Below, piece after piece: positions 1,741 to 22,972 of a stretch of DNA of 23,207 bases. Each line of letters begins with the position of its first letter. Within the stretch, counting starts at the first letter, position 1. Location: the IMG/VR virus record IMGVR_UViG_3300010354_017747, positions 1 to 23,207 of that record, one strand, 5' to 3'. Below the pieces are notes generated by a model. It saw only the letters and a program-made list of their open reading frames with translations, searched no databases and had not been told where the DNA came from. Position numbers and translations under genes: made by a program. This DNA is from a virus.

Positions 1741-3453
1741 CTAGATATCTACGGCGAGGCGGTGCATTCCGTATTCGATCGAATCCGCAGGGTAGATCGG
1801 GAAGAAGCGGAAGTCGATGCGAATGCCGGTTGCAGTAGCCTGGGAGCCGGAAACGCTGCCACCCTTGATGCGGCCTGTATTGCTCAGTCCGGAGAGGTAG
1901 GAGTTTACCATTCCGCTGACGTTGCCTAGCAGGCTGTCGGTCTTTGGCTCCGACTTATAAGGCTGGCTGGCAAAGAAGATATCCGTCTGGATCTGGTTGG
2001 ACATACGACGAATGCACACATAATAGTGGGCAGGATCGTTGGCCAGCGTACGTCCGTTCAGGCAGTGGAACGCGTTGGCGGCGGGGTCAAGAATGATTGC
2101 TTCCAGACGACCGTCGGTGTACGCGTTAAACGCCTGAACGCTGCTCTCGGTATCAACATCAATGATGGTCGAGAAGAAACGGGAGGACGAACGTGCAGCG
2201 GGCGAAACGTGCGCTGCAGTAGCAGCTAGATGCCCAGCGTAGAAACCGTCGGGCGATACCGACTTGGACGCTAGACGGGGCTGGCTGGCGTAGGTGCACC
2301 AGCCGGCAACCATTACGGCGTGCTTGCTGTCTACACCTTGGGCTGCTGTTGCAGCTCCCGCAACCGTCATCCCGCGAGGGGCGTTGATCACGGCAATGCG
2401 AAGTCCATCAAGGATGCTGGCATTCTCGGCGTGGGCAATCAGGGCACCGCGAATAGCGGCATTGGCCTTGCCAGGAACAAACACGATATTGGCTTGGACC
2501 TTGCCAAGAGCAAGCAACCCTTCGATGTAGTCGTCATCGGTAATGGGCGAACCATCCGAACCACCAGCCATGAAAGCCGTGCCGGTTGGTAGCACTGGCG
2601 CGGCAAGGTCACCCTCGAAGAAACCGCGAACCATAGCCGAACCGCGAAGTGCGGCCAGCTCGTTGCCATTGATGAGGTTGTCCGCAGTGAACTGAAGCGT
2701 GAAGCTCTCCTTCACAGCGTCGCCATCCTCAAGACTAAGCACAACCGTACCAGCAACGGTGCCGGGCACAAACTTGTACTTGACGGTGTTGCCGTAAATG
2801 CCCTCATAGAGGCACTCAAGGCGCAGGTCACCGACCAGTGCTTCAGCCTTGGCAGGACCATCAAGACCGCCCTGCAGATTACCAGAAGCAGCCCCTAGGG
2901 TAAGTCCGTCAGCGGAGTCGAGTAGTTCGACTTCGTAGGCGATGTCGTTGGCGGCAAGGCCTGCGACCTTGGCCTTGAGTACGACACGCCCGGAAACGAG
3001 CGGATCAAGTAGACCAACTACGGGAGCGGTAGCATCGTCCCCGATAAGAGCAATCAGCTCAGCCTCGATCGAAGCTGCCGCTTCACCCACGGTAAGAGCT
3101 GTGGTGTACTCCCAGGTGTCAACACCATCGGTAAGCGTGAGCTTGACGTTACCCGCGACAGTGCCGGTGCCCGAAATGTCGAAGTAGGCGCTGGCGACGC
3201 GGGCAGCGCCCATTACGCGCACGAGACCAAGGTCAGAAGCTCCCTCATCAAGGGCGCACTGCAGACCAACAGAACCTACATCAAGCGTGCGGCCGACGCG
3301 GGCGGCAAGGGTATCGTCATCCGACACCAGTACAATCTGCTTGTACAGGCCCTTGTACGCGGGTCCAACCGCAACCACGCGGTTCAGGCTCCGGTTTCGG
3401 ACTGGCCTGGGACCGTCAATGATTTCTTCGATACTGACATTAGGGAAAGCCAT
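1741..3453 (-). CDS. Tail sheath protein (contractile tail)
   Basis: 570 residues. It would polymerise around the tail tube and contract during DNA delivery. The N-terminus (MAFPNVSIEEIIDGPRPV) is typical of sheath proteins. The middle (about residues 90-330) is rich in Gly, Ala and beta-strand patterns and probably forms inserted surface domains. The conserved core lies in the last 250 residues: a segment with HAVMVAGWCTYAS, then GFYAGHLAATAAHVSPA, and a C-terminal part with GSQATATGIRIDFRFFPIYP that matches the family's end domain. AAAGGAG lies upstream of the ATG with a long spacing of about 10 nt. The upstream gene ends 27 nt away, so both are in one operon. A stable hairpin follows the stop. 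Identification rests on overall pattern and C-terminal signature; confidence is high. Confidence 0.88.
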   Translation of the reverse strand: MAFPNVSIEEIIDGPRPVRNRSLNRVVAVGPAYKGLYKQIVLVSDDDTLAARVGRTLDVGSVGLQCALDEGASDLGLVRVMGAARVASAYFDISGTGTVAGNVKLTLTDGVDTWEYTTALTVGEAAASIEAELIALIGDDATAPVVGLLDPLVSGRVVLKAKVAGLAANDIAYEVELLDSADGLTLGAASGNLQGGLDGPAKAEALVGDLRLECLYEGIYGNTVKYKFVPGTVAGTVVLSLEDGDAVKESFTLQFTADNLINGNELAALRGSAMVRGFFEGDLAAPVLPTGTAFMAGGSDGSPITDDDYIEGLLALGKVQANIVFVPGKANAAIRGALIAHAENASILDGLRIAVINAPRGMTVAGAATAAQGVDSKHAVMVAGWCTYASQPRLASKSVSPDGFYAGHLAATAAHVSPAARSSSRFFSTIIDVDTESSVQAFNAYTDGRLEAIILDPAANAFHCLNGRTLANDPAHYYVCIRRMSNQIQTDIFFASQPYKSEPKTDSLLGNVSGMVNSYLSGLSNTGRIKGGSVSGSQATATGIRIDFRFFPIYPADSIEYGMHRLAVDI

Positions 3454-3480
3454 GTTTAGTAAGCTCCTTTGGCTACTAGC

Positions 3481-4449
3481 CTAACATTCGTCAAGACCAT
3501 CATCAATCTTTCTAAAGTAGAAGGAGATATCCAATTCTGACTTCGGTGAAGTATCGATGAGTGAAATCAGCGAGGCGTCCAAGTTGGAATACAGCTGACC
3601 TGTTGCTGGGTTTACAAGTTCTGCCCTTGTAATTTCGGTTTCGTTGTCTGCGTCAAGGTACTTGTGAAGCACGGTGTTATAGTAGACCGGGTGTTCTATT
3701 CCGAGTGCGTCAGGTTTGTGCCCTACAAGCAAGCTGCCGTTGTCGGCTGGTTGTACAAGCTCGTAAGAGGGGGGCCTCTGCCACTCTCTCACGACATAGT
3801 ACTTAGCTTGCCAAAGAACCGAAGCAGAATGTAGGACAGAATTTCCCTTGTTTTCCCAACGAGCAGTAGGGAAATCGATATGCTGAACTGTACTTCCTGC
3901 GAGCAGCGGAACTCCGTCACCAAAGCGGGGAAGTCTACGCATGCTTCTGCCCCTAAGCGCGTGAGCTAATAGCTCCGCGTACTGCCTTAAAGCGTATTCT
4001 ACGTAGTTGGTTTCAAACACCGTTTCCTGCCCGCTTATAACGTCGGGATCAGACACGGGTGACTTGGAAAATCCAAACGCGTGTAGCCGAAGCACAATAT
4101 TACAGGTAGCTTCGTCAAGAGCGGTGAGGTCAACGCGCTGGTCGCCGGAAGCGCCAAGGGTATACGGCTGAAACCTGATAGATGCGTTTACGCTTTCTAC
4201 TGTCAAGGAAGTCGCTTGGTCTGAGTTGTTGTAGTGGTATGGAAACACGGATAACGTAAGCCCGCTTAGGTTCTGTACTTCCAAACCATCGTAGTTTCTA
4301 AATTTGGTAATTCTTATAGGACTTCCCTGCTCATCAACGATGATACCCGCCTTTAGCAGAGGGTGCTGAGCCAGCCTGTAAATCAGCGTCTGGACAATCA
4401 AGTTTGCCGTGACCGGCGGCCACAGCTGCTGACTTGCTCCGTATGCCAT
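3481..4449 (-). CDS. Unknown virion-associated protein, candidate tail completion or terminator protein
   Basis: 322 residues, no family recognised. The ATG overlaps the stop codon of the upstream 551-codon gene by one base (TAATG), so translation is probably coupled. The protein mixes beta-strand-like stretches (LSGLTLSVFPYHYNN, VESVNASIRFQPYTLG) with an Arg-rich segment near residue 175 (HALRGRSMRRLPRFG) and ends with strand-like SELDISFYFRKIDD. No signal peptide or membrane segment is visible. Its place between the head genes and the sheath gene fits a connector or tail-terminator role, but that is drawn only from position. Confidence 0.8.
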   Translation of the reverse strand: MAYGASQQLWPPVTANLIVQTLIYRLAQHPLLKAGIIVDEQGSPIRITKFRNYDGLEVQNLSGLTLSVFPYHYNNSDQATSLTVESVNASIRFQPYTLGASGDQRVDLTALDEATCNIVLRLHAFGFSKSPVSDPDVISGQETVFETNYVEYALRQYAELLAHALRGRSMRRLPRFGDGVPLLAGSTVQHIDFPTARWENKGNSVLHSASVLWQAKYYVVREWQRPPSYELVQPADNGSLLVGHKPDALGIEHPVYYNTVLHKYLDADNETEITRAELVNPATGQLYSNLDASLISLIDTSPKSELDISFYFRKIDDGLDEC

Positions 4450-7031: not shown

Positions 7032-8138
7032 TTAGAACGGGTTGGTGACGGCAGGATCGATAATGGCGGACAGGTTGGCAACCGAGTCAACCGTGAGCAC
7101 GCCTACCCACTCGGGATAGATCATGTAGGGAAGACCGGCGTTACCCATCTGCATCGAACGGCCGGGAGCCGCGGGAGGCTGGGTGTCGGGACCAGTGCGG
7201 ACCCACATTCCAGGACGACCCATCGGATCCTCACCAACGCAGTACTGGGTACGGCCCAGCAGCTCGCCGCTCATCTGAGGATGGTTCTTGGCAAGGATGA
7301 CGACCTTGTTGATTGGCCAGACCTTGGAAACCGCGTTGGTCACGGGATCCTGGTAGACGTGGTCAACAGTGATAATCTCCATACCGGCGATCTTCGTCAG
7401 CTTGCCGTCGGTAAAGGTGACGAAGCCAGTCTGCGAGAGGAACGAGACTTCCTGACGACGCAGGATCTCCGCGTTATTCTCGAGGATGGCCTGAAGGTCC
7501 GAGCTCATGATGATGTACTCGGGCTCAACCTTTGCAATGTTGAAGATCTTACGACGGAAGTTGATCAGCGTGCGGACGGGGAGGGCGTTAGCCTGATCCG
7601 CCCAGCCGGCACCACCAGCAGCAACAACGTCATAGAGGTTGCTGGCGGGGATGTTGGCCGATACGTTGATCGACTTCTTGGTGCGGGGATCGGTGTAGTT
7701 GATACCACCGAGAAGGAGCTTGGCACGAAGAATACCGAACAGGTGGTTGTTACGCTCGGTCATACGACGAATGCGGCGAGCGATGAACTCCTTACCTTCC
7801 TTCTCGTTCAGCGTCCCGACCTTGCGGAGGTCGTTGACTACGTTCTGAGGAATGAAGTCCGACTCACGAACGTAAGCAGGGAAGATCTGCATACGCTCGA
7901 CCTGAGCGTTGTCGGTCAGGACGTCGGTGAACCCAGGCTCCACGAGGGGAGCAACGCCAACACCGTTACGAACGCGCTCGATCGTGATCGAGGTGTTCAT
8001 CGTGGTCTCAGCGGGGAAGAACTGGGCGAGGGGATCTCCAGGGAACTGTTCGAAGACCTGGGCCATCTTGGTGAGTACGGTCGTACCCAGAGATGCCAGA
8101 TCGCCGACCTGGACGAACGGCGTCACATTGGCTGGCAT
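7032..8138 (-). CDS. Major capsid protein, lambda gpE-like (HK97 fold)
   Basis: 368 residues, close to the usual length of the lambda gpE family. It forms the icosahedral head shell. Features supporting this are an N-terminal region with TTMNTSITIERVRNGVGVAP, then PGFTDVLTDNAQVERMQIFP and the ARRIRRMTERNNHLFGILRA helix, which recalls the Arg-rich long helix of this family. The second half has EYIIMSSDLQAIL, GMEIITVDHVYQDP and the C-terminal segment PEWVGVLTVDSVANLS. There is no long N-terminal scaffold arm, which fits the separate protease-scaffold gene just upstream. AAGGAG lies about 10 nt before the ATG, and the gap to the upstream gene is 18 nt. Codon choice is strongly biased, which gives long artefact frames on the other strand, as expected for a highly expressed gene. 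Confidence 0.9.
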   Translation of the reverse strand: MPANVTPFVQVGDLASLGTTVLTKMAQVFEQFPGDPLAQFFPAETTMNTSITIERVRNGVGVAPLVEPGFTDVLTDNAQVERMQIFPAYVRESDFIPQNVVNDLRKVGTLNEKEGKEFIARRIRRMTERNNHLFGILRAKLLLGGINYTDPRTKKSINVSANIPASNLYDVVAAGGAGWADQANALPVRTLINFRRKIFNIAKVEPEYIIMSSDLQAILENNAEILRRQEVSFLSQTGFVTFTDGKLTKIAGMEIITVDHVYQDPVTNAVSKVWPINKVVILAKNHPQMSGELLGRTQYCVGEDPMGRPGMWVRTGPDTQPPAAPGRSMQMGNAGLPYMIYPEWVGVLTVDSVANLSAIIDPAVTNPF

Positions 8139-8156: not shown

Positions 8157-9062
8157 TTACTTGCCGCTCTCACCGAGGAGATTGGCGATGATGTCGCTGT
8201 ACTGGTTATCGACCGAGGCCGAGTCAGTCAGCTGCTGGCCGATCTGCTCGAACTCGACACGGTTGCCGTGGGGCAGGGTCTCAAGAGCGGCGAACAGGGC
8301 TTCGGCTGCATCAACCTCTGCACCATTCGACAGCTTCTGGACGGATCCACGAAGATTGCGGGCAATCTCGGCTACCGCCTGAACGGTGACCGCGGGGATG
8401 CCTGCAGCTACCAGACCGTTTACACGGTTGGTGAAGTTGGTTTCGGCAATAGCATTGCTGTACTGCTCGGTCTGGTTGCGGGTCTCGGAAAGCTTGGCGC
8501 TCAGATCAGAGATAACCTCTTCCTTCGCTGCAATCTGCTCCGAGAACTGCTGCGTCAGTTCAACCTTGGCCTTCTCAACGGCCTGGTTGACCAAAGCGCT
8601 GAGCTTGGCCTCGTCAAACATGTCTGGCACGCCTCCTTCTGCGTCGTCCGAGTACTTCTGGGGTTCCCCCTTGGGAGCCTCAGCCTTCTTAGCCATCTTC
8701 TGGCCTTGGAAGAGCTTAGCCATGGAAGAAAGAAACTCGCCCATCAGAGACATACGCTCTTCTTCGCGCTCGCGCTTTTCTTCCATGTCTTCTTCGCGAC
8801 CCATCTTCTTGAGGGCTTCGCCAGCCTTCTTGAGTGGTTCGCCGTGTGAAAGGTCTTCGTCATTCGAAAGCTTGGCCGCAGCCGGATCATCCCCGGGAAT
8901 ACCCGCGGGCTTGTCATCCTTGATTTCGGGGTCCGCAGGCGCACCCACCATCCCTGCCAGCTTCTTCCTGAGTTGATCGCGCTGCGCATCGCTCAGTTCG
9001 TAAGCGTCCAGCAGGGCCCCGACGTCGGAAAGAACCTGGTCGTTGCTCTTGTTGTTGGACAT
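8157..9062 (-). CDS. Probable internally initiated scaffolding protein nested in the protease gene
   Basis: An in-frame ATG at 9062-9060 (Met537 of the fusion) is preceded by AAGGAG about 11 nt upstream. It would give a 301-residue protein starting MSNNKSNDQVLSDVGALLDA. That is exactly where the protease domain ends and the helical, Glu/Lys-rich scaffold part begins, with coiled-coil runs near LTQQFSEQIAAKEEVISDLS. Lambda makes Nu3 scaffold in the same way inside gene C, and Mu makes gpZ inside gene I. The internal start is inferred from the ribosome-binding site and domain edge. Confidence 0.55.
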   Translation of the reverse strand: MSNNKSNDQVLSDVGALLDAYELSDAQRDQLRKKLAGMVGAPADPEIKDDKPAGIPGDDPAAAKLSNDEDLSHGEPLKKAGEALKKMGREEDMEEKREREEERMSLMGEFLSSMAKLFQGQKMAKKAEAPKGEPQKYSDDAEGGVPDMFDEAKLSALVNQAVEKAKVELTQQFSEQIAAKEEVISDLSAKLSETRNQTEQYSNAIAETNFTNRVNGLVAAGIPAVTVQAVAEIARNLRGSVQKLSNGAEVDAAEALFAALETLPHGNRVEFEQIGQQLTDSASVDNQYSDIIANLLGESGK

Positions 9063-10670
9063 TTTCGTCTGATCTCCTTCAGACATGCACAGGGTAATGA
9101 CGGGTAGCATCCCTGCTGGTTGGGATAACACTTGGTTCGGTGGAAGGTCTGGGACAAAAGGTGCGTTGGTCAACGCGTGTGCAGTGAGAAGGGTTCCAAT
9201 TGGACGGCCGTCTCGCTTTGAGATTGCGTATCGCTTAAGTTCAGCACTAGCGCTAGCATAACGCCCCTCTCTGACGTCGTCTACAACTTCGTCTGTTAGA
9301 GGCCTATAAACACCATACAGTACATCTTCCTCTTGCTCAAGCTTTTCCAGATTTGCAACTTTAGGTTCGCCATCAATTGCTTCAGGAAAACGAGCGTGAC
9401 CGTAGCGTAGATAGGGAACAAACCCTGCCTCATTGCTATTGAAATTTTCTACCATCTCGTCAAAATCACGCTGCGTAAAATCAACGGTTCCATAGACTGG
9501 GTGTACAAACGTACCAAAGCGGGCAATAGGGATGCGGAGCATTGCTGCTCCGTCTGACAGCAGAAATACTTCGGCGCCACCTCCAAAGTAGCAACTGACA
9601 TCCTGCGACAGCGCCTGTAGGCTGGAAACCTTATGGCCAACATACTCATCGGTAGGCTTCAGCTTGCCATCACCATCTTCACGGTATAGCTGAATACGCG
9701 CTGCAGGATCTTCTTCGGAACCGGTGATTTTTACCGGGATGCCGGGTACTTCGCCGCTCTTTACAATGCTTACAACTTTACCGCGAGCTGTGCCTCCCGA
9801 AGAACCCCAGCGGACCATACTGCCTACCGAAGCTGAGAACTGTTCAACAGGTTTCTTTACGCCCATCTGAGTTGTTGTACCCGCTTCCGCTGTGCCTGCA
9901 CAGCAGCTACCGGTACCGTCGCAGCAACTAAGCTTTTCGTCAGCTTTCTCTGCTCGACTGACAATTCCGTCAGCCCATGACTTACCCGCGTCTCCACCCC
10001 AAAGCAACCAAGCAATCGCACCGCGGTCACCCGCTTCAGGACTGCCGGACTTGTTCTTGGCATGTCGGGCAAAGAAGGAGCGCATGCGCTTTACAGTCTT
10101 GAGCGGCATAGATGCACCGCTTGCAAGGTCACGCGCACGGGCTACGCCGCTACCAATACCCTGCCTTCCGGCTTCACGGGTATCCAACCCACCACGACCA
10201 AACTTTTCCCGCAGCCTAAGGCCCCTGCGGGCTGCGGAGCGAACTCCCTCCGGCGGAATAAAACCGTCTGCCAAGCCTTCGTCAAAATCTACAATTTCGT
10301 CTAGGTCCGGGATAACGTCGCTCAGCCGGAAACCCAGCTCATCCTGCACATCCGCTAGGTCTTTGGTAGAAAGTTCTTCGGTATAGCTTGAAAGGGCTAC
10401 AAGTTCCTCGTTGGATAGCTCAAGAACCATCTCACTCATGGACAGGTTTTCGTTGTAGTTGCTGACATCAACGCCCATTTCGCGCAAACGCGACAGGATG
10501 CGACGCTTTGCAGAGGCGCGCTCTTCCGCACTCAAACCTTGTGTGCGGTTAACAGCACGCCAGGCAAGCTGAGCGTGGAGCTTGTCGTGCATAGGCAGGC
10601 TACGCTTACCGGGAACAGCGAAGTCGCTGGCCGGAAGGTTGTTACGCGCAGCTGCGCGAAGAACTGCCAT
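8157..10670 (-). CDS. Mu gpI-like capsid protease fused to scaffolding domain
   Basis: 837 residues. Residues about 12-60 carry a D-F-A-x-P...HDKLHAQLA motif seen in phage head proteins. Residues about 205-240 hold ARHAKNKSGSPEAGDRGAIA followed by a WLLWGGDAGKSW segment. A short Cys-rich part near 248-255 reads SCCDGTGSCC. The protease domain spans about 375-520: it starts at RIPIARFGTFVHPVYGTVDF and holds YGHARFP (His425), GRYASASAEL (Ser473 and Ser475) and an LTAHALTNAPFVPDLPP end that matches Mu gpI-type proteases. His425 and one of the two serines are the likely catalytic residues (inferred). Residues about 537-837 are Lys/Glu-rich and predicted coiled coil, as in scaffolds cleaved out during head maturation. 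The gene sits directly upstream of the major capsid gene. GAGG lies about 12 nt before the ATG. Confidence 0.85.
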   Translation of the reverse strand: MAVLRAAARNNLPASDFAVPGKRSLPMHDKLHAQLAWRAVNRTQGLSAEERASAKRRILSRLREMGVDVSNYNENLSMSEMVLELSNEELVALSSYTEELSTKDLADVQDELGFRLSDVIPDLDEIVDFDEGLADGFIPPEGVRSAARRGLRLREKFGRGGLDTREAGRQGIGSGVARARDLASGASMPLKTVKRMRSFFARHAKNKSGSPEAGDRGAIAWLLWGGDAGKSWADGIVSRAEKADEKLSCCDGTGSCCAGTAEAGTTTQMGVKKPVEQFSASVGSMVRWGSSGGTARGKVVSIVKSGEVPGIPVKITGSEEDPAARIQLYREDGDGKLKPTDEYVGHKVSSLQALSQDVSCYFGGGAEVFLLSDGAAMLRIPIARFGTFVHPVYGTVDFTQRDFDEMVENFNSNEAGFVPYLRYGHARFPEAIDGEPKVANLEKLEQEEDVLYGVYRPLTDEVVDDVREGRYASASAELKRYAISKRDGRPIGTLLTAHALTNAPFVPDLPPNQVLSQPAGMLPVITLCMSEGDQTKMSNNKSNDQVLSDVGALLDAYELSDAQRDQLRKKLAGMVGAPADPEIKDDKPAGIPGDDPAAAKLSNDEDLSHGEPLKKAGEALKKMGREEDMEEKREREEERMSLMGEFLSSMAKLFQGQKMAKKAEAPKGEPQKYSDDAEGGVPDMFDEAKLSALVNQAVEKAKVELTQQFSEQIAAKEEVISDLSAKLSETRNQTEQYSNAIAETNFTNRVNGLVAAGIPAVTVQAVAEIARNLRGSVQKLSNGAEVDAAEALFAALETLPHGNRVEFEQIGQQLTDSASVDNQYSDIIANLLGESGK

Positions 10671-11156: not shown

Positions 11157-12596
11157 TCAACGCCTGTTAGGAGGTTGCTGCGGGTTTCCGGGTTTAGGTA
11201 CTGGAGGGTTGCTTGGCTTTACTGGCTGAGCAGATGTAGGGGGTGCAGGAGGTGCAGGGGGCTTGACCTCATTCTGTTTAGCTAGTTTTGCTGCCCGCTT
11301 TTCATCAAGCATGGGTAAACCGCACATTGCTCTAACCATGTTCAAGTCTTCTGCGTCCGAGATGTTTACAACACCGGTGTTGCACAAGTTCGTGAACACG
11401 TTAGACATCACTTCAGTGCTGGCAGAGTCACTGGGCTGCATCAAGAACTTGCCAGGATTATCCTGCTTTCCAAAATTAAGCCTTATAAGCTGGCCAATAA
11501 CCTGCTCTACAAAAGGCTCTACAATTTCGGCGTACAGCGCTTGTAGCATCATCTTGTACACGTCAAAATGCACAGCAGCAACCGCCTGCCCGCCAAGACT
11601 ACCACCGGCTGAATCCTGAATCAGGAGCTGTGGGATCAGCAATCCTCGGTAGATAGCGGAGTTGTAGTACTTGATGGCTTCGCTGAAGCTGTCCCCGAAG
11701 TTGTTTCCAGTAGTGAGTGTACCAAGCTTGATATCGTCTGTGGGGCTAGGCCTGACAACGACAAGGCCCGTTCCAGTCTGAATTTCAGATATAGCTTTAG
11801 CAGTGCTATCACCAATAGTCTCTGGCTTCATCTGCCCCGGTGTCGACGGATCCGGAACCTCATTACCCGTGTAGCCGTGGGGAACGATTGCATAGGTGAC
11901 GGGGGTGCCGTAACGATCAAGAGCGACATTCCACATCTCAAGAACAGATTCTTTCAGACGCCAGTTCTTATAGATTCTCTTGATTGCAGACTCGCCGTAG
12001 TAGCTGTTATACCGGCGGTTATGAGTTACTAGAATTGTCCTATCCTCTGGTAGAACAATTGGTGTACCTCCAAGGCGATCCTGCCAGATGCCTGTTGTAA
12101 AACTAGAGTTGAAAGCAGAGTCTTCGCCCCAAGTAAGCCGACCCTGCTTGTTTACCTGAAGGTTGATGGTACGCGGATTATAGTTGGCGATGAAATCAAT
12201 CCAGATGCGCCCGTCCTCTGGTTTGTAGACTACCTCGCTAACACCAAACCCAGACCACAGAGACGAGACAATAAGCTCACCCAAGGCCTCCTTGTAAGAG
12301 CCCGACATCCGAGCCAAGTTCTCGTTGACGAAGTCTTGAATCTTATGGTCCGGATGCTGGTACTCGCCTAGGGCAGCCAGAATACTGAGTTTGATAAACT
12401 CAAGTCCGGTGCCTACTGTCTCGTCCGTGGTGAAAGCACGCTCGTACTCTACTAGCCTGAGATAATCTGGATGGCCGTAGAAGCCGTAGATGTTGAAAGC
12501 CGTCCAGTAGCTCAGGCTGGTACCAACCTGCTTCGAGTAGCCTCGAGGCACGTTCTTGTACGGTTCAGCTGGATTCTTCCTAGGCACGGCTTTCAA
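11157..12596 (-). CDS. Portal protein, Mu gp29-like (DUF935 type)
   Basis: 479 residues. It would form the dodecameric ring at the head vertex through which DNA is packaged. Family-like segments are TTDETVGTGLEFIKLSILAA, the GELIVSSLWSGFGVSEVVYK region, and YGESAIKRIYKNWRLKESVL followed by MWNVALDRYGTP, matching the core of Mu-type portals. QAVAAVHFDVYKMMLQALYA follows. The C-terminal about 40 residues are Pro-rich and probably disordered. The chosen start is TTG at 12596-12594, two bases after the stop of the frameshift reading frame upstream. No good ribosome-binding site precedes it, so coupling to the upstream frame is likely. A GTG three codons later is an alternative start. Confidence 0.85.
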   Translation of the reverse strand: MKAVPRKNPAEPYKNVPRGYSKQVGTSLSYWTAFNIYGFYGHPDYLRLVEYERAFTTDETVGTGLEFIKLSILAALGEYQHPDHKIQDFVNENLARMSGSYKEALGELIVSSLWSGFGVSEVVYKPEDGRIWIDFIANYNPRTINLQVNKQGRLTWGEDSAFNSSFTTGIWQDRLGGTPIVLPEDRTILVTHNRRYNSYYGESAIKRIYKNWRLKESVLEMWNVALDRYGTPVTYAIVPHGYTGNEVPDPSTPGQMKPETIGDSTAKAISEIQTGTGLVVVRPSPTDDIKLGTLTTGNNFGDSFSEAIKYYNSAIYRGLLIPQLLIQDSAGGSLGGQAVAAVHFDVYKMMLQALYAEIVEPFVEQVIGQLIRLNFGKQDNPGKFLMQPSDSASTEVMSNVFTNLCNTGVVNISDAEDLNMVRAMCGLPMLDEKRAAKLAKQNEVKPPAPPAPPTSAQPVKPSNPPVPKPGNPQQPPNRR

Positions 12597-13263: not shown

Positions 13264-16200
13264 ATGCGGTTCTTTATCCTTGTAGACCTGATACGAGGAA
13301 GCGTCCACGGAATCGTGGAGGCTTCTTCGTTGCGCTCGCTTGAGCTGCAATATTCCAAGGATCAGTTTGCAGTTTTTGGAAATCCTGAGGGTTACCAAAC
13401 TGAAGCCGAAGCTAAACAAGGACTACAGAACGCTTCAAATAACCCAAGCACCGTTCTTGCCAACATAGAAAAAACTAGGCAGGAGCGATTAGAGCAAGAG
13501 CGGATTCAGCGAGACCAAGCCAAGTTCATTGCTCAGGACCCCATTGCCAACATTGACGTCAGTAGTGACAGAGTTGCTGAGTCAGATGCCAAGCCAGCCA
13601 ACAAAGCAGCCGAGCCAAAAACTGAAGCGGAGCTCGTCAAGGAGCAGCTGAAATCCGCCGGCACCATGGGTGGTGTTGGTAAGAAAGCTCTTGAGGCAAA
13701 CAAGGAAAAGCTGGGTGCCTACGAGGTTCAGCGACCAGATACATCCTCGGGGTTCAGCCGTAGCTCTGTATTACCCTCGCGCACGTCCAGTTTATCCGCC
13801 AGCAAACCTGGTGACAGTCTAAGCCGTGCGGGCAACCTTTACGCTCAGGCAAAAGGCTACTCTGTTGAGCGCACAGTCAGCAACACAGAGGCAACCCTTC
13901 GAATTCCCAAGACAATTTCCGGAGCAAGCACCCCCCGCTTAGGCACTCAGTCAGTACCCCAGGCAGAAAGCCGTGCTGTACTCAACAGGGTTTTTCAGGG
14001 GCAGGTTACAAAACTGGGCTACAGCGGCAGCAAGGTGGAGTTCAACGGGGAGCTCACGGATGTAGAACCCAAGCTATTAGACCTTATTGAACGGTCTACG
14101 GACCTCATACTTTCAGAACTGACTATTCAAACAGGCGTTCAGAAGCACCCTGTAACCAGTCTGGCTAGAAGCGTAAAAAGGGCCCAAGGAAGCGCCGAAA
14201 GTTACTTTGATACCAAGAGCGCCTCGCTTGTCGTGGGCGACAGACTTGCGGACAACCTTGAATCCCTGCAAAAACTTGCAAGTGGGTCAGGTCGCGCTAC
14301 CAAAGCTAGCGTTACTGGAGCCCTTTCCGGGCTGCTTGAGTTACGTCACGAAATTATTCATAGCGCAGTAACTGTCGGCTTGAAACTTGCTGTAGAAAGG
14401 CGCCAAGCCAGCCTAAAAATAGACAGTAGCGCAAAGCAAATGATGGAAGAGGGGCTTACTGAATTTTTAGGCCGTTCGGATATCAAAAACTTCGCAGCAA
14501 AGCTGCTGACTACAGTAGGCGGACTTAGCGACAAATCGCTTGATACCGTATTGGACAAGATAAATCCATTGCTGGACCAAGTAGAAGCTTCAGCGTTTAC
14601 AGGTAAGGCTACAGCTGAAATAGAAGGATTGCTGAACAAAGGTGCAAGTAAAAGCTTAGACGCAGTAGTTTCGGCGCTACTAGGTCTAAAAATCAACGAG
14701 CGGCAGACCATGCTGGAAGTTGTCAAAGACCTCAAACTGAATACGGAACCTGTCGGGCAGCGGTCGCGAATGGCTTGGTGGGGCAACGAGTTTGCGGAAC
14801 AAGCAAGAGCCCTTGAGGCGCAGCAGGAAACTGGTGAAGCGCCCGCCGCCAGAACAAGGCAATCAAGACAGCCAAGACAACCAAGACAACCGAGGGAACC
14901 TAGAGAACCCAAACCCAAGAGTGTCAAACCAGAAGAGCCTAAGCAGGCCACCAGCAACAGTGAGAAAATAAAGAAGACCTCTGCGCCTACTGCAAATGCA
15001 AATCAAACACCCAGAGCAGCAACGCCGAGACCTAGAGTCGAGACGCCACCAGATCCAGCTCCAGTACCGGTACCTAGACGGCCTACCTTTGAGCTGCAGC
15101 CAGAGGTAACCAGCAAGGGCGAGTCTATACTCAGGATCGGTCTACTGGGTCGCACGGTAGAGCGCGACAGGTTGGGTGAGCTTGGAAAGACCGAGTTCAT
15201 TGAAGAAAAGAATGCAATACGGCGTAACCTGTTAAGCCTACTTGAGGCTAATCCTGATCAGCACGTACGGATAACCTCAAACCTGCAACCAGGCTTTTCC
15301 ATGGTTGCCGCGGAGGTTGCTGCCGATCTGCGTCGTGAAGGAAAAAACATCAGCCTTGATGTAGTACTGGCGGCTGATGGCGACCTTCAACGGATGTACC
15401 CTAACTCTGGCCCGTTAAACCGAGCTCAAGCTGTTTTAGGCCAGGCCAACCGCGTACACATACTCTACAGAAAAGGTGCAGGCCCGGAGGCAGCTAGAGA
15501 TCGCACGGACGCGGTTTCAGAGTTCATAGTTCAACAGTCTGATGAAATGCTGGTGGGTGGGCGAATGCCACCCCGCACAAACAGAGCCGTCTCCGGATAT
15601 TTTAGAGCAATAAATCTAGCTCTTAGGTACGGCAAGAAAATTACACGAGTAAACGGGCTGTTTTCTTTTGGTCAGCCAGACGAAGACATATCACCGTTTG
15701 AAGCACTTAACATGCAGCGAGCCGCTGTGCTGGCAGGTTTTAAACCACCAGATGTCAAACTTTACAAAGCTTTTGTAGAGCTGCACCCAGATAAAGCTAG
15801 CGATACTCAAGCTTTCCTTGAATTTCTGGCAAAACGAGACAACAGCACAGCTGCCCAACAAGAGCGCACTGATACCATTGCCCGGCGGGGTGGAACTGGT
15901 CAAGAAACAATTGCCCATGAAACACAATTAGCCGAGTTGTTGCAAGAAGGTGTAAACCAGCCCCGGACACCGGGCGGTTACAGGCCTGAGCTTCAAAACG
16001 TAAAAACTCCTGTATCTACCTTTGAACAGATTACAGAAGAAGGTGCTCGCGGGTTTGCGGAGCTTGCAGATCTAAAAGCAACAACAACAACAACAACAAC
16101 AGATAAAGTAACCGACATAACGAGCGTTACCCAAGAAAAAACCAGCACCCCAAAAGCTAGAAGAGGCCTAAGTAGTTTTGAGCTGTTTGCGGACTCAACC

Positions 16201-19200
16201 AATGAAGAAATTGAGCGTTCCGTAGCATTCTCTACTCCCAAGCGCGCAATACAGTTCTTAAAAGATGTTACGGAGGTTGATCCTTTTGCACGTATTGAGA
16301 ACGTTATTACTACTCGAGTAGAAGGCAAAAATCTAAGATCTGTCGTTAATTATACATACGAAGAAGGTAAATTTTACGAAACCCGCTACGAAACTAGAGC
16401 TGGTCAAACATATTACGAAGGCTTGCCTAACCAAGGGGCTAGGGTTGAGGTTAAAGCAGAACTAGCTGAAGAAGATGTATTACGCCGCAGCAGAGCAGAT
16501 GTTAACTCTACTACAGTCACCTTCATAGGAAATGATGATCCTAGGGCTTTGCTGCGATACAGGCAGGTAAACCCTGAAAACCCTGACGAAGTTCTTAGTG
16601 AGGGAGTTCTTAGAAATGCAACCGATATTCGTCAACTATACGGGGACCGATCAGCTACACCAAGAGCAAGCAGAGCTGGAATTAGCCGTGATGTCCTAAA
16701 TGTAGAGCCAAGATCTCAAGACCCTAGGTTGAACGTTCCGCAAGATCCGCGCTCTGTTGCCCCGCAGGCTACCCCTGAAAGAACAACCCCTGCAGCCCGC
16801 GGTCTAGACATAAACGCTTCTGTTGCAGATCTGCAAAGCTTAGGCCTTAGGGGACCAAAAACACCTGGCGAAGAGTTCATTATCTATGAACACAAGATCA
16901 ATATTGGTGAAGGTGGGGTTGAGGCTGCCAGAAAACAGGCCATAGAGCTAAGAAAATCTTTTGGTCTTTACGAGAAAGAGTATTCCGGCGATTCTATTGC
17001 GCCTGTCAGCAAGTCAGCTATTAGAATTTACTTTCCCACTGAAGAAAAGCCTAAACAGTTCTTTAAGCATAATGAAGGCGACAACTTCATTACAGTTCCT
17101 ATAGCCATTGCTAAGTCTAGCTTGTCCAGCAAGTCGGTCGAATTTATTAACCCGGAGCACTACAACACATTTACTGACAGTTACGAAGGCGATATTGCCG
17201 GTACAAGATCTGCCTCCTTTGAGGGTGTACGCAGCGCTGCGCCTGTACCCGACCTTAGTCCACCACCAAGTCCCTTTAATAACACAGCAGACCCTGACTA
17301 CGACGTTACTGAAAGCCTGACGGACAACACGGCTCCTAATAAGAAGGGTTGGGGAGAAGACTACCAAGATGCAATGAAGTCCTTGCGCAAAATAGAAGAG
17401 GACCGTCTCCAGAGTATGAGGGACGCCAGCGCTAGACAAAGGGAACTTTTTGATAACTCCATGAACCCGTACGAAGGGTCGTACTTAGACGATAGCCCGT
17501 TTAGTAACCGAGCTAGACACGATGAAAACATGGCTAGGCGTGATCCAAACTACAGGCGTGCGCGCACTGAGCGCAGAGAAGCCCGTAGACTGGCAAGAGA
17601 ACAGGAAGAAGCTCGCAGAAGTCAGCTACGTTCCGATGCGTTCGTGAATTGGTTGGGTGGTAGTGAAGAAGGCAGACCAACCTTTGCGCAGTGGGCAGAG
17701 CGGACCAGAAACGAGCTTGAAAACAAGACTGCTGAAATCAGTAACGAGGACCAAACGCGAGTTGATGCACGCCGACGTGAGCAGGAAGAATACGAACAGG
17801 AGCGTCGGGATGCCCTAGATGCTCTTTACGAAGATGAGGAGCGTTTGCGTACTGAGGCTAATCAAAGACAAACCCCTGACTCCCGTGTCTCCCCCGAGCA
17901 AACCAACAGGACCGATGTACCTGGTGAACGTAATGTCAGGTCTTTGACAGACTTGTTGAGCAACTACCGCGAGAGCAACCCAGACGCCCGCGTAGTCTCA
18001 GTAAATGACATGTTAGGCAAACCAGGTGTTAGACCGGACCAAACCCCTGACTCCCGAGTCTCCCTTGAGCAAACTGATAGAACTGGCGGGGGAGAACGTA
18101 ATGTCAGGTCTTTGACAGACTTGTTGAGCAACTACCGCGAGAGCAACCCAGACGCCCGTGTAGTCTCAATAAACGACATGCTGGGCAAACCAGGTGTTAG
18201 ACCGGACCAAACCCCTGACTCCCGAGTCTCCCCTGAACAAATCGGTAGAGTCGGTGGGGAAGAGCGCAATGTCAGGTCTTTGACAGATTTGTTGAGCAAC
18301 TACCGAGAGAGCAATCCAGACGCCCGCGTAGTCTCAGTAAATGACATGTTGGGCAGAGCTAATAGCAGCCAACCCCGCTCAAGCAGTTACGCCGAAGACG
18401 AGCAAGAGCGCAGGGATGCCATGGACGCCCTTTACGAGGACGAACTTTCTCGTACGACAAACCAAGCAAGACAAATATCCGGAGGTGAAAACAGCGAATA
18501 CGACGATGCGTTGGAAGCACTGGACCAGTCCAACCGGGATGCCGAGCGAACTGCCAACGCGAGGAACAGACGCCGTCGAGCCCAGCTCAGGCGCCGTGAA
18601 CGCTCACGTTTAGATCGCAGGCAGCGTAACGAAACCCGTTGGGAAGAGCGGGCAGTCAGACGAGCGCTTGCCCAAGAGCGTATGGCGCAAACAGAAAGGG
18701 GCAGGCAGGGTCAGCTAAGCCTATTTGACAAACCAGAGCTGGAGCGGGTCACAACTCCAGAATACGTAGGCCCAAGGCGTACGGCAGCTCCAACGACAGC
18801 CCTGCCCGATGAGGTGGCACCAGCTGATACTGCTGCCGCTACCGCTCCGTCAGTAGACTATACTGCTCGTACGGCGCTGCCAGGTTACACGAAACCCAAG
18901 GCTAGGCTAAGCGACAGAATCGAAGCAACCTTTGAAGTGCTCGGCGGTTTGGTTGCGCCCTCCAACCAATCAACCAAACATCTGCTTGGCATGACTACCG
19001 AAATGGTTGGCGGTCTGTTGCTTGGTGAGGTTCTGCAACGCTCGATATTCAGGGATAGCGTACACTCTGATTCAAGAGAGTTGGCCAAGAGCGTAATTGG
19101 CACAGCACTTACAGGTGTGCTGATGGCCAACCCTGTAACCGCTGTTGCTCTAAACCAGCGCTTGTCGGGACAATCCAACGATAGCGCCGCGTACCACGCG

Positions 19201-19635
19201 CTGATGCTGGGCACAGGTATTTTCGGTTCTGCAATTTCCAAGTTCATCATCGATAAAACACTACCGGAACGCCTATTGCACACACGCACCGCCGCGGGTA
19301 TGGCTTTAGGTGTGTTGTCGTGGGCTTTGGCACCTGTAGTTGCTCGCGTATTCACGGACTTCAAGGAGGTTGCACAGCAGCAGGCGGCGCAAAACTACAA
19401 CGAACAGGCAGAGATGCAGAAAGCTCTGATTATCAAGGACACTGTAAACAACTTGTCGGAAAGTGCCGAGCAAGAGTTTGAAGCTCAGTTCCTTGACGAG
19501 GAAGGAAATGAAATTGCTTCCGACAGCGATGAGATGACAGTAACCGACCTGCAAGAGGTAGAAGATGCTTCAGGGGAGCCGCTGCCCTTCGACGTAAATC
19601 TTGACCGCAACCCGTTCCTACCGGGCGGGCTTTGA
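13264..19635 (+). CDS. Giant 2123-aa phage protein with embedded YpsA-like SLOG domain
   Basis: Start ATG at 13264; no clear ribosome-binding site. Layout: 1-55 small folded part (MRFFILVDLIRGSVHGIVEA); 55-230 charged and Ser-rich; 230-500 helical; 520-615 Arg/Gln/Pro linker; 620-800 a Rossmann-like domain resembling the YpsA/DUF1273 branch of the SLOG superfamily, with RIGLLGRT, then ITSNLQPGFSMVAAEVAADL, LDVVLAADGD and SEFIVQQSDEMLVGG; 940-946 seven Thr; 960-1120 and 1195-1330 unrecognised folded regions; 1370-1530 highly charged helical; 1536-1698 three 56-aa repeats; 1715-1830 charged; 1905-2025 hydrophobic helices with about four membrane-like or buried segments; acidic end. Alternatives are a tape measure (hydrophobic segments, next to the chaperone) or an internal virion protein delivered into the host. 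The opposite strand and the SLOG domain are unusual for a tape measure. The stop overlaps the convergent gene by 18 bp. Confidence 0.85.
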   Translation: MRFFILVDLIRGSVHGIVEASSLRSLELQYSKDQFAVFGNPEGYQTEAEAKQGLQNASNNPSTVLANIEKTRQERLEQERIQRDQAKFIAQDPIANIDVSSDRVAESDAKPANKAAEPKTEAELVKEQLKSAGTMGGVGKKALEANKEKLGAYEVQRPDTSSGFSRSSVLPSRTSSLSASKPGDSLSRAGNLYAQAKGYSVERTVSNTEATLRIPKTISGASTPRLGTQSVPQAESRAVLNRVFQGQVTKLGYSGSKVEFNGELTDVEPKLLDLIERSTDLILSELTIQTGVQKHPVTSLARSVKRAQGSAESYFDTKSASLVVGDRLADNLESLQKLASGSGRATKASVTGALSGLLELRHEIIHSAVTVGLKLAVERRQASLKIDSSAKQMMEEGLTEFLGRSDIKNFAAKLLTTVGGLSDKSLDTVLDKINPLLDQVEASAFTGKATAEIEGLLNKGASKSLDAVVSALLGLKINERQTMLEVVKDLKLNTEPVGQRSRMAWWGNEFAEQARALEAQQETGEAPAARTRQSRQPRQPRQPREPREPKPKSVKPEEPKQATSNSEKIKKTSAPTANANQTPRAATPRPRVETPPDPAPVPVPRRPTFELQPEVTSKGESILRIGLLGRTVERDRLGELGKTEFIEEKNAIRRNLLSLLEANPDQHVRITSNLQPGFSMVAAEVAADLRREGKNISLDVVLAADGDLQRMYPNSGPLNRAQAVLGQANRVHILYRKGAGPEAARDRTDAVSEFIVQQSDEMLVGGRMPPRTNRAVSGYFRAINLALRYGKKITRVNGLFSFGQPDEDISPFEALNMQRAAVLAGFKPPDVKLYKAFVELHPDKASDTQAFLEFLAKRDNSTAAQQERTDTIARRGGTGQETIAHETQLAELLQEGVNQPRTPGGYRPELQNVKTPVSTFEQITEEGARGFAELADLKATTTTTTTDKVTDITSVTQEKTSTPKARRGLSSFELFADSTNEEIERSVAFSTPKRAIQFLKDVTEVDPFARIENVITTRVEGKNLRSVVNYTYEEGKFYETRYETRAGQTYYEGLPNQGARVEVKAELAEEDVLRRSRADVNSTTVTFIGNDDPRALLRYRQVNPENPDEVLSEGVLRNATDIRQLYGDRSATPRASRAGISRDVLNVEPRSQDPRLNVPQDPRSVAPQATPERTTPAARGLDINASVADLQSLGLRGPKTPGEEFIIYEHKINIGEGGVEAARKQAIELRKSFGLYEKEYSGDSIAPVSKSAIRIYFPTEEKPKQFFKHNEGDNFITVPIAIAKSSLSSKSVEFINPEHYNTFTDSYEGDIAGTRSASFEGVRSAAPVPDLSPPPSPFNNTADPDYDVTESLTDNTAPNKKGWGEDYQDAMKSLRKIEEDRLQSMRDASARQRELFDNSMNPYEGSYLDDSPFSNRARHDENMARRDPNYRRARTERREARRLAREQEEARRSQLRSDAFVNWLGGSEEGRPTFAQWAERTRNELENKTAEISNEDQTRVDARRREQEEYEQERRDALDALYEDEERLRTEANQRQTPDSRVSPEQTNRTDVPGERNVRSLTDLLSNYRESNPDARVVSVNDMLGKPGVRPDQTPDSRVSLEQTDRTGGGERNVRSLTDLLSNYRESNPDARVVSINDMLGKPGVRPDQTPDSRVSPEQIGRVGGEERNVRSLTDLLSNYRESNPDARVVSVNDMLGRANSSQPRSSSYAEDEQERRDAMDALYEDELSRTTNQARQISGGENSEYDDALEALDQSNRDAERTANARNRRRRAQLRRRERSRLDRRQRNETRWEERAVRRALAQERMAQTERGRQGQLSLFDKPELERVTTPEYVGPRRTAAPTTALPDEVAPADTAAATAPSVDYTARTALPGYTKPKARLSDRIEATFEVLGGLVAPSNQSTKHLLGMTTEMVGGLLLGEVLQRSIFRDSVHSDSRELAKSVIGTALTGVLMANPVTAVALNQRLSGQSNDSAAYHALMLGTGIFGSAISKFIIDKTLPERLLHTRTAAGMALGVLSWALAPVVARVFTDFKEVAQQQAAQNYNEQAEMQKALIIKDTVNNLSESAEQEFEAQFLDEEGNEIASDSDEMTVTDLQEVEDASGEPLPFDVNLDRNPFLPGGL
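16081..16101 (+). repeat. (ACA)7 microsatellite inside the giant gene
   Basis: Seven consecutive ACA codons encode Thr940-Thr946. Length change by slippage would stay in frame, so this is a tolerated linker of variable length. Confidence 0.9.
17869..18357 (+). repeat. Three 168-bp in-frame direct repeats (56 aa each)
   Basis: The segment AATGTCAGGTCTTTGACAG recurs at 17932, 18100 and 18268, exactly 168 bp apart. Each unit encodes QTPDSRVS..EQ, then RNVRSLTDLLSNYRES, then NPDARVVSVNDMLG. The DNA copies are nearly identical, with only a few substitutions outside the short variable stretch after the EQ. Units are flanked by a related pair, EQERRDALDALYEDE before (about residue 1515) and EQERRDAMDALYEDE after (about residue 1715), so a larger duplication probably preceded the triplication. 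Confidence 0.9.
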
Positions 19636-21373: not shown

Positions 21374-21982
21374 ATGATTTTTCGGAAGATTCATACACCC
21401 CTGCTGGTATTGCTGACCGCGTGCAGCAACAACAACCCCCCAACTCCCTCGGCTCCCAAGACTCCCAAGGAAGTCCAACTCTCACAGCCCGATTACGTGA
21501 TTGGCTTGAAGTCCACGCGCAAGCTGTCGGCTACCGTCATCTACGATGATCTCTCACGTGATGGCAATGTCGTCTGGTCGTCAAGCGACGATCGTATCGT
21601 CACGATCGATCCCTCAGCGGGTACTGTGACTGGCGCGGGTGAGGGTCAGGCCACAGTGGTCGCCCGCGCTACGAACAACCCCCAGGTTCGCGCGCTCTGT
21701 CTGGTTACGGTCAAGTCTGGCGCCGTACAGGATCTCTTCGTATCCATCGATCCGGCATCGGCTTCCATGGCTCTTGGGGCTACCTTGCAGCTCAACGCAT
21801 CCGTGCGTGATAGCAACGGTGAGATTACGCCCAATGTCACGTGGTCGTCCAGCAACAACGCCGTGCTGGTGGTCAACCAGACCGGGTTGGTCACGGCCGT
21901 GGGCAAGGGCGACGCGTCGGTGATGGCAACGTCGCAGCGAGACTTCTCGCGCCGGGGTGTCTGCGAGATCACGGTGCGGTAA
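21374..21982 (+). CDS. Lipoprotein with two BIG2 immunoglobulin-like domains
   Basis: 202 residues. Residues 1-16 are a lipoprotein signal peptide (MIFRKIHTPLLVLLTA) with lipobox LTA-Cys17; Ser follows at +2, which in Gram-negative cells favours the outer membrane. A Pro-rich spacer (about 18-32) follows. Domain 1 (about 33-115) and domain 2 (about 117-202) both show the BIG2 pattern: strand, W-S-S-S-(D/N)..., G-x-V-T-(G/A)-x-G-x-G-x-A, and a Cys near the end of each. The protein would be host-made and displayed on the cell surface. A perfect ribosome-binding site precedes it, and the next lipoprotein begins directly after its stop. Its G+C-rich third codon positions look higher than in the giant gene, hinting at host origin. 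The function may be receptor masking or superinfection exclusion; that is inference. Confidence 0.85.
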   Translation: MIFRKIHTPLLVLLTACSNNNPPTPSAPKTPKEVQLSQPDYVIGLKSTRKLSATVIYDDLSRDGNVVWSSSDDRIVTIDPSAGTVTGAGEGQATVVARATNNPQVRALCLVTVKSGAVQDLFVSIDPASASMALGATLQLNASVRDSNGEITPNVTWSSSNNAVLVVNQTGLVTAVGKGDASVMATSQRDFSRRGVCEITVR

Positions 21983-22972
21983 ATGAGGGCCTTATTCGCC
22001 GCAATAGTTGCGGTAGTCGCGGGTTGCCAAGGGAGTCAGGGGGCTGCGCTGCCCTCGGCTCCCCGGGCTCCCTTGACTGCAACGCCTGTCAAGCACATTG
22101 AAGTCACGCCTGGCAAGCAAGTGCTAGCACCTAACGCTACCGTCAATCTCATGGCTTCCGTTTACATGATGGACGGCCAAATCACCGCCAACGTGAACTG
22201 GGCAAGCAGCGATGACACGGTAGCCACGGTCTCTCGCACGGGTTTGGTCACAGGTATAAAGGAGGGTCTGGTGACGATTATGGCTCGTTCAGCAGTTGAC
22301 AGCAGCCGCTTTGGTACCTGCGTGTTGATGGTGTCTACCTGCACAGCCTGCAGTATTCCGGCAGGCTTGGTAGACAGGGTAGACGCGGGAGGCGTGGTTA
22401 CCGAGGCGGAAAAGAACGCAATTGCCGGACAGGTGTCAAAGTACAACCTGACCGTGGATGCCGCAGCTGACCGAAGCTACGTCCTGAACGAGAAGGGCAC
22501 GACACCTGAGCGGGAGCCTATGGCCGAGAACACACAGATGCTGCACTTTGAGTCGAGGTTTCCCGCAGTGGTCATAGCACCCAAGACTGCTTGGTTGTCT
22601 GTTTATATGACAGTAAACTCGAGCATGAAAGTTAAAAGTGACGGGCACGCCGACGGGCCAAATGGCGATACGCTGAGTCCATCAGGGCCTTGGGACGACG
22701 CGGATTTTGACATTCCGGGGCGTGTTTTGTTCTACGCGTGGGATGGGTCTTGGGCAAAGGATATAAGCACACGAAGCGGGCAACGCCTGTTTATCGACGA
22801 CTTACCCATTGGTACCGGATTGATAGGCAGGGCTGTCGTGCAGCGTAATGGGTTTATTCGCGAAATGTGGACCAAGCCGTTTGTCATGACCCCAAACAGA
22901 AAGCCTGCATCAGGTAACAACAACGTCATCCCGCAGTTGGACTTTGTCATACGAGTAGGGGAGTTCTGGTAG
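21983..22972 (+). CDS. Lipoprotein with one BIG2 domain and unknown C-terminal domain
   Basis: 329 residues. The ATG follows the previous stop directly (TAAATG). Residues 1-14 are a short signal (MRALFAAIVAVVAG) with lipobox VAG-Cys15. A Ser/Ala/Pro spacer leads to one BIG2 domain (about 38-118) with VNWASSDDTVATVSRTGLVT, clearly related to the second domain of its neighbour. Then come a Cys-containing hinge (STCTACSIPAG) and a C-terminal region of about 200 residues that I do not recognise. It is rich in beta-strand-like stretches with a Trp-containing part (PSGPWDDADFDIPGRVLFYA) and ends at FVIRVGEFW. The modular look suggests a surface-exposed stalk carrying a binding or masking head. The gene carries one isolated copy of the operator-like sequence at 22116-22130. 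Confidence 0.82.
   Translation: MRALFAAIVAVVAGCQGSQGAALPSAPRAPLTATPVKHIEVTPGKQVLAPNATVNLMASVYMMDGQITANVNWASSDDTVATVSRTGLVTGIKEGLVTIMARSAVDSSRFGTCVLMVSTCTACSIPAGLVDRVDAGGVVTEAEKNAIAGQVSKYNLTVDAAADRSYVLNEKGTTPEREPMAENTQMLHFESRFPAVVIAPKTAWLSVYMTVNSSMKVKSDGHADGPNGDTLSPSGPWDDADFDIPGRVLFYAWDGSWAKDISTRSGQRLFIDDLPIGTGLIGRAVVQRNGFIREMWTKPFVMTPNRKPASGNNNVIPQLDFVIRVGEFW

Follow-up and report, generated by a model that had tools for sequence, protein, structure and literature searches.

Does a giant protein encoded beside the portal gene of a phage carry a YpsA-like SLOG domain, and could such a domain still sense a nucleotide-derived ligand? Both had been proposed from the letters of the window, by which we mean the whole 23,207-nt stretch of the IMG/VR record IMGVR_UViG_3300010354_017747. 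Viral SLOGs are mainly YpsA-like and are predicted to counter NAD/ADP-ribose-derived signals (PMC9503650, PMC5512222, PMC7824862); they are published as typically standalone proteins (PMC9503650), whereas the candidate considered here lies within a giant beside the portal. Polyvalent proteins, which are large, multidomain, virion-embedded and likely injected with the genome, have been described by Iyer, Aravind et al. (PMC9503650, PMC5512222, PMC7824862), and the text of the polyvalent-protein survey makes no mention of SLOG (PMC5512222).

The giant gene and its counterparts

The 23.2-kb record comes from a contractile-tailed phage whose minus strand carries genes for the sheath, the major head protein, the protease region and the portal. 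The giant gene lies beside those for portal, head and sheath and is read from the other strand (Table 1), which places it, as for polyvalent-type proteins, among the virion genes of a portal-terminase phage. Among annotated phages, the nearest portal proteins are those of Ma-LMM01-type cyanophages, with which identity is about 28-30%. IMG/VR holds closer portal relatives (60-92% identity), including one carried by a contig of 205 kb, and a scan of genome contigs with the portal alignment found no relatives.

Table 1. Coordinates of the features discussed. Positions refer to the window unless a locus name precedes them.
Feature	Position	Strand	Evidence or remark
Tail sheath protein	1741..3453	-	phrog_30392, E 2.2e-40
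Major head protein	7032..8138	-	phrog_30785, E 1.4e-47
Portal protein	11157..12596	-	PHROG 113, E 1.3e-39
Giant ORF, 2123 aa	13264..19635	+	Open frame; divergent from portal operon; L003 and L007 have counterparts at this place
N-terminal module of ~60-70 aa common to the L007 giant	13264..13473	+	Smith-Waterman 47 vs shuffle mean 21; 0-1/2000 shuffles
Low-complexity Arg/Pro/Glu/Lys-rich linker ahead of the SLOG domain	14830..15110	+	Sequence, composition
YpsA-clade SLOG-derived Rossmann domain, aa 622-795	15127..15648	+	Pfam, L003 alignment, model, Foldseek, loop spacing
GLLGRT where strand 1 is normally followed by the G[ST]GHRP loop	15139..15156	+	L003 and phage SLOG alignment; register less secure
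NLQPGFS replacing GMAxGxD	15280..15300	+	GxD/E signature lost; the acidic position is Ser679
Val-Ser replacing near-invariant Arg-Asn	15514..15519	+	Alignment
GGRMPPRT replacing [DN]G[ST]xGGT	15556..15579	+	L003 and phage SLOG alignment; register less secure
168-bp unit (56 aa), 2.9 tandem copies, within the giant	17869..18355	+	
C-terminal hydrophobic segments, aa 1943-2033	19090..19362	+	Hydropathy; L007 match reached by 1/2000 shuffles
Acidic C-terminal tail common to L007	19435..19602	+	Smith-Waterman 80, 0/2000 shuffles
Ma-LMM01-type giants	L014:4406-15091 (Ma-LMM01 gp080), L015:1-7869, L017:8343-20000		

Counterparts of the giant were found beside related portal genes. In L005, whose portal is 92% identical, the same ORF opens with MRFFILVDLVR. 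In L003 (IMGVR_UViG_3300049855_000569), a metagenomic phage contig whose portal is 64% identical to that of the window, a giant ORF occupies the same place on the opposite strand; the ORF is partial, as the contig ends within the gene. The counterpart in L007 is 1188 aa long and shares its N-terminal 200 residues with the L003 giant (0/2000 shuffles). The N-termini of the window and L003 giants, compared directly, did not exceed shuffled controls; what connects them is therefore L007, together with the SLOG domain and gene position. As judged from sequence, the portal-divergent giant of these three related phages has related ends and a variable middle. Neither Pfam nor a phage SLOG profile found a SLOG domain in the L007 giant, and a candidate stretch picked out there by eye failed a shuffle test.

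Within the window giant, the SLOG-derived domain is the only effector-type domain recognised, compared with the several effector domains expected of a polyvalent protein. Matches to GDSL lipase, DUF2232 and TerB all fell below cut-off, and the GDSL lipase match is a spurious one that falls on the 168-bp tandem repeats. The linker preceding the SLOG domain includes a 9-bp tandem repeat (14855-14909).

Evidence for a SLOG-type domain

The peptides on which the assignment had first been based are present as quoted: RIGLLGRT at residue 624, ITSNLQPGFS at 670, LDVVLAADGD at 698, NRAQAVLGQA at 719, SEFIVQQSDEMLVGG at 752 and GKKITRV at 790. Against Pfam, the excised domain matched a single family, YpsA (PF06908; E 0.0026), at 18.2 bits, below the cut-off of 27.7 bits. 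By itself this sub-threshold match is insufficient for a SLOG call, and on our sequence comparisons L003 is the decisive bridge. The middle of the L003 giant holds a SLOG with canonical SGHRP, GMAQGFD, KRN and NGTPGGT motifs, which by tblastn matched 257 phage records (best 8e-22). The Smith-Waterman score between the window domain and the L003 SLOG is 90, far from the distribution given by 3000 shuffles (mean 31, sd 4.9, maximum 64; z about 12), and locally shuffled controls reached it in 0 of 2000 trials. Of the 74 phage SLOGs compared, none matches the window domain nearly as well as L003, the runner-up scoring 62. The L003 and window domains also have in common a long alpha2-beta3 loop, with 24 residues separating the GxD position from the residue that follows strand 3, a spacing that is 19 in 70 of the 74. 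A phage SLOG profile scored the window domain weakly (8.9 bits), and neither tblastn against phages nor IMG/VR scans, each run with the domain and with the full-length giant, retrieved any relatives.

Structure prediction pointed the same way when it was guided by an alignment that combined the window domain with L003 and 53 further SLOGs from IMG/VR. The resulting AlphaFold2 model has a mean pLDDT of 79.5, with core blocks at 88-96, and its strands and helices alternate in Rossmann order. In a Foldseek search of the PDB its best matches were B. subtilis YpsA (2nx2, E 3.2e-8) and then DprA (5mll, 1.2e-4); among viral models the top matches include DprA-like and YpsA-related proteins. A control folded without the alignment kept the same opening strand-helix order, and was a low-confidence, generic Rossmann-like model (pLDDT 55.9) whose structure search returned no SLOG, only generic Rossmann-like, tubulin/FtsZ-type and other folds. 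The alignment thus contributes to the verdict: the assignment rests on L003 homology and the alignment-guided model, and the independent support is the sequence link to L003. Taken together, homology and modelling identify residues ~622-795 as a YpsA-clade SLOG-type Rossmann domain, by descent as well as by fold, and in this respect the original prediction of such a domain between low-complexity linkers of the giant is borne out.

We then placed the domain among known systems. The YpsA/DUF1273 family (PF06908; 2nx2) provides both its top PDB structural match and its only Pfam match, but the window domain differs in being embedded in a 2123-aa phage protein and in having lost the pocket signatures. 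The best viral structural match, BFVD A0A6J5M9G6 (1141 aa, uncultured Caudovirales phage; E 2.1e-8), is another large phage protein that contains a similar fold. Standalone phage YpsA/DprA-like SLOGs (Phage NCTB, Streptomyces phage Angela gp88, Klebsiella phage KB2) belong to the same family, reached through L003; unlike the window domain, they are mostly single-domain proteins of 150-200 aa with intact motifs. Retrieval of 80 SLOG loci gave 75 readable SLOG ORFs longer than 150 aa, the other five being short or misframed. Most of the 75 are 152-200 aa long, only two besides L003 are longer than 310 aa (407 and 557), and none but L003's sits in a giant. The 557-aa phage protein (L065:1906-3576) has a canonical SLOG in its C-terminal part and, by eye, a DUF4326-type candidate in its N-terminal part.

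The ligand pocket

Fold and pocket part company in the window domain. In the YpsA clade, GxD/E has been proposed as the signature for substrate binding; in B. subtilis YpsA the substitutions G53A and E55Q abolished the division effect and impaired foci (PMC6459960). In the window domain PGFS occupies residues 676-679, so that the signature after strand 2 is missing. GHR, RN and GGT are each kept in 70-74 of the 74 phage homologues, and the aligned window residues are GRT, VS and PRT. The near-invariance of GMAxGxD among the same 74 is a biased figure, because the homologue scan used GMAxGxD as its pattern. The register of the motifs is uncertain at the first and last loops and firmer at NLQPGFS and Val-Ser. 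One GxD glycine (G677) and Asp760 are still present.

The pocket that had been proposed for ligand sensing, Asn673-Glu684, coincides with the change from GMAxGxD to NLQPGFS, and the further loss of GHR, RN and GGT tells against that part of the proposal. The pocket residues also differ between the two giants: L003 retains all the motifs and the window copy does not. With these motifs substituted, nucleotide sensing or cleavage by the window copy is unlikely, as is a canonical nucleotide site there; a scaffold or interaction role is the more likely one. The nucleotide site of the L003 SLOG, by contrast, should be intact, to go by its motifs. The two giants are alike in gene place, in having a SLOG in the middle and in loop length, and differ in that the L003 pocket motifs are canonical.

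Possible histories and roles of the giant

We consider it about an even bet (probability roughly 0.5) that a diverged YpsA-clade SLOG, gained in an ancestor common to the L003 and window phages, lies in the variable middle of a fast-evolving portal-divergent giant and has lost its pocket in the window lineage. On this account, an intact SLOG would have joined the variable middle of the giant in that ancestor. The L003 lineage would have kept the nucleotide site, and its domain may act on a host signal of nucleotide origin, of the NAD/ADP-ribose class, by binding or cutting it. The window lineage would have lost the pocket chemistry and retained the fold, which might hold the giant together or bind a protein partner. 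The giant itself would be a virion or head-packaged protein of polyvalent type. It fits the polyvalent pattern in size and gene position, and its packaging in the virion and delivery are plausible from that position. Like phage polyvalent proteins (PMC5512222), it is a large protein beside the portal that carries a conflict-type domain; it differs from them in having one recognisable domain and in that its packaging is inferred from the locus.

The same substitutions bear on other readings. The window domain could still be a working ligand binder or sensor of altered specificity, for a nucleotide, an ADP-ribose derivative or DNA. The fold and the helix-strand order are kept, G677 and Asp760 remain, and the intact open frame speaks against decay, but GHR, RN, GGT and GxD, near-invariant among the 74 phage homologues, are all substituted, and we hold this reading to be unlikely. 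If the domain were instead a decaying relic of a recently useful one, tolerated because the giant's middle varies and loses domains, one would expect what is seen in the SLOG-less L007 giant, in the lost pocket motifs and in a middle that is variable between phages. Yet the fold core still models with high confidence and the reading frame stays open across 6.4 kb, which suggests that the fold is maintained; we hold decay to be an improbable explanation.

Two further readings are less probable again. That the giant is a non-virion protein made in the host cell, such as a membrane-anchored takeover factor whose adjacency to the portal is incidental, would suit its transcription opposite to the structural operon and its hydrophobic C-terminal region. 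It sits poorly with the presence of a portal-facing giant in each of three phages (window, L003 and L007) and with the same place being occupied in Ma-LMM01-type phages, and we give it little chance. Least probable is that a Rossmann-like domain from a different family occupies the region and resembles SLOG by coincidence. The sub-threshold Pfam score, the tubulin/FtsZ-type matches of the single-sequence model and the failure of tblastn to retrieve any phage SLOG with the window domain lean that way; the pairwise score to the L003 SLOG, far above shuffles, and the shared loop length and gene position weigh heavily against it.

The related L003 and window phages carry the SLOG in intact and pocket-less forms, respectively. 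The pair offers a ready-made experiment on whether nucleotide-signal binders are injected by phages along with their DNA, and on the role of the SLOG fold once its ligand site is lost.

In Ma-LMM01-type phages the giant is likewise next to the portal, at 2622 to 3886+ aa. Homology between the window giant and Ma-LMM01 gp080 found no support: their C-terminal tails and hydrophobic regions score at shuffle level, and hhalign gave E 0.032 with a probability of 1.6%. The Ma-LMM01-type giants have a conserved LGDFDGDxF/LLDYDGDNF motif that recalls the DFDGD metal site of the RNA polymerase beta' subunit, and two of them have a PLD-like HxK motif near the start. Pfam gave no polymerase match for the cyanophage giants and a PDB profile search with the DFDGD region gave none either, so a virion RNA polymerase there is only a lead. 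As a tentative and somewhat doubtful generalization, portal-opposite giants might be a hotspot that delivers swappable host-takeover domains with the genome, comprising an intact SLOG that binds a nucleotide signal in L003, a repurposed, non-nucleotide one in the window and perhaps PLD-like and RNA-polymerase-like parts in Ma-LMM01-type cyanophages.

Elsewhere in the window, two adjacent plus-strand genes (21374-21982 and 21983-22972) encode lipoprotein-like phage proteins next to structural genes; their N-termini resemble signal peptides and contain Cys, and both have Big_2 Ig-like domains (E 1.6e-24 and 4e-13, respectively). An 837-aa minus-strand ORF (8157-10670) combines PHROG protease-like, DUF6582-like and Hva1_TUDOR matches. 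A 48-bp tandem repeat of 4.5 copies (503-709) lies within a minus-strand ORF of 559 aa and encodes repeated peptides of the STATGQGTKKNKLDDV type.
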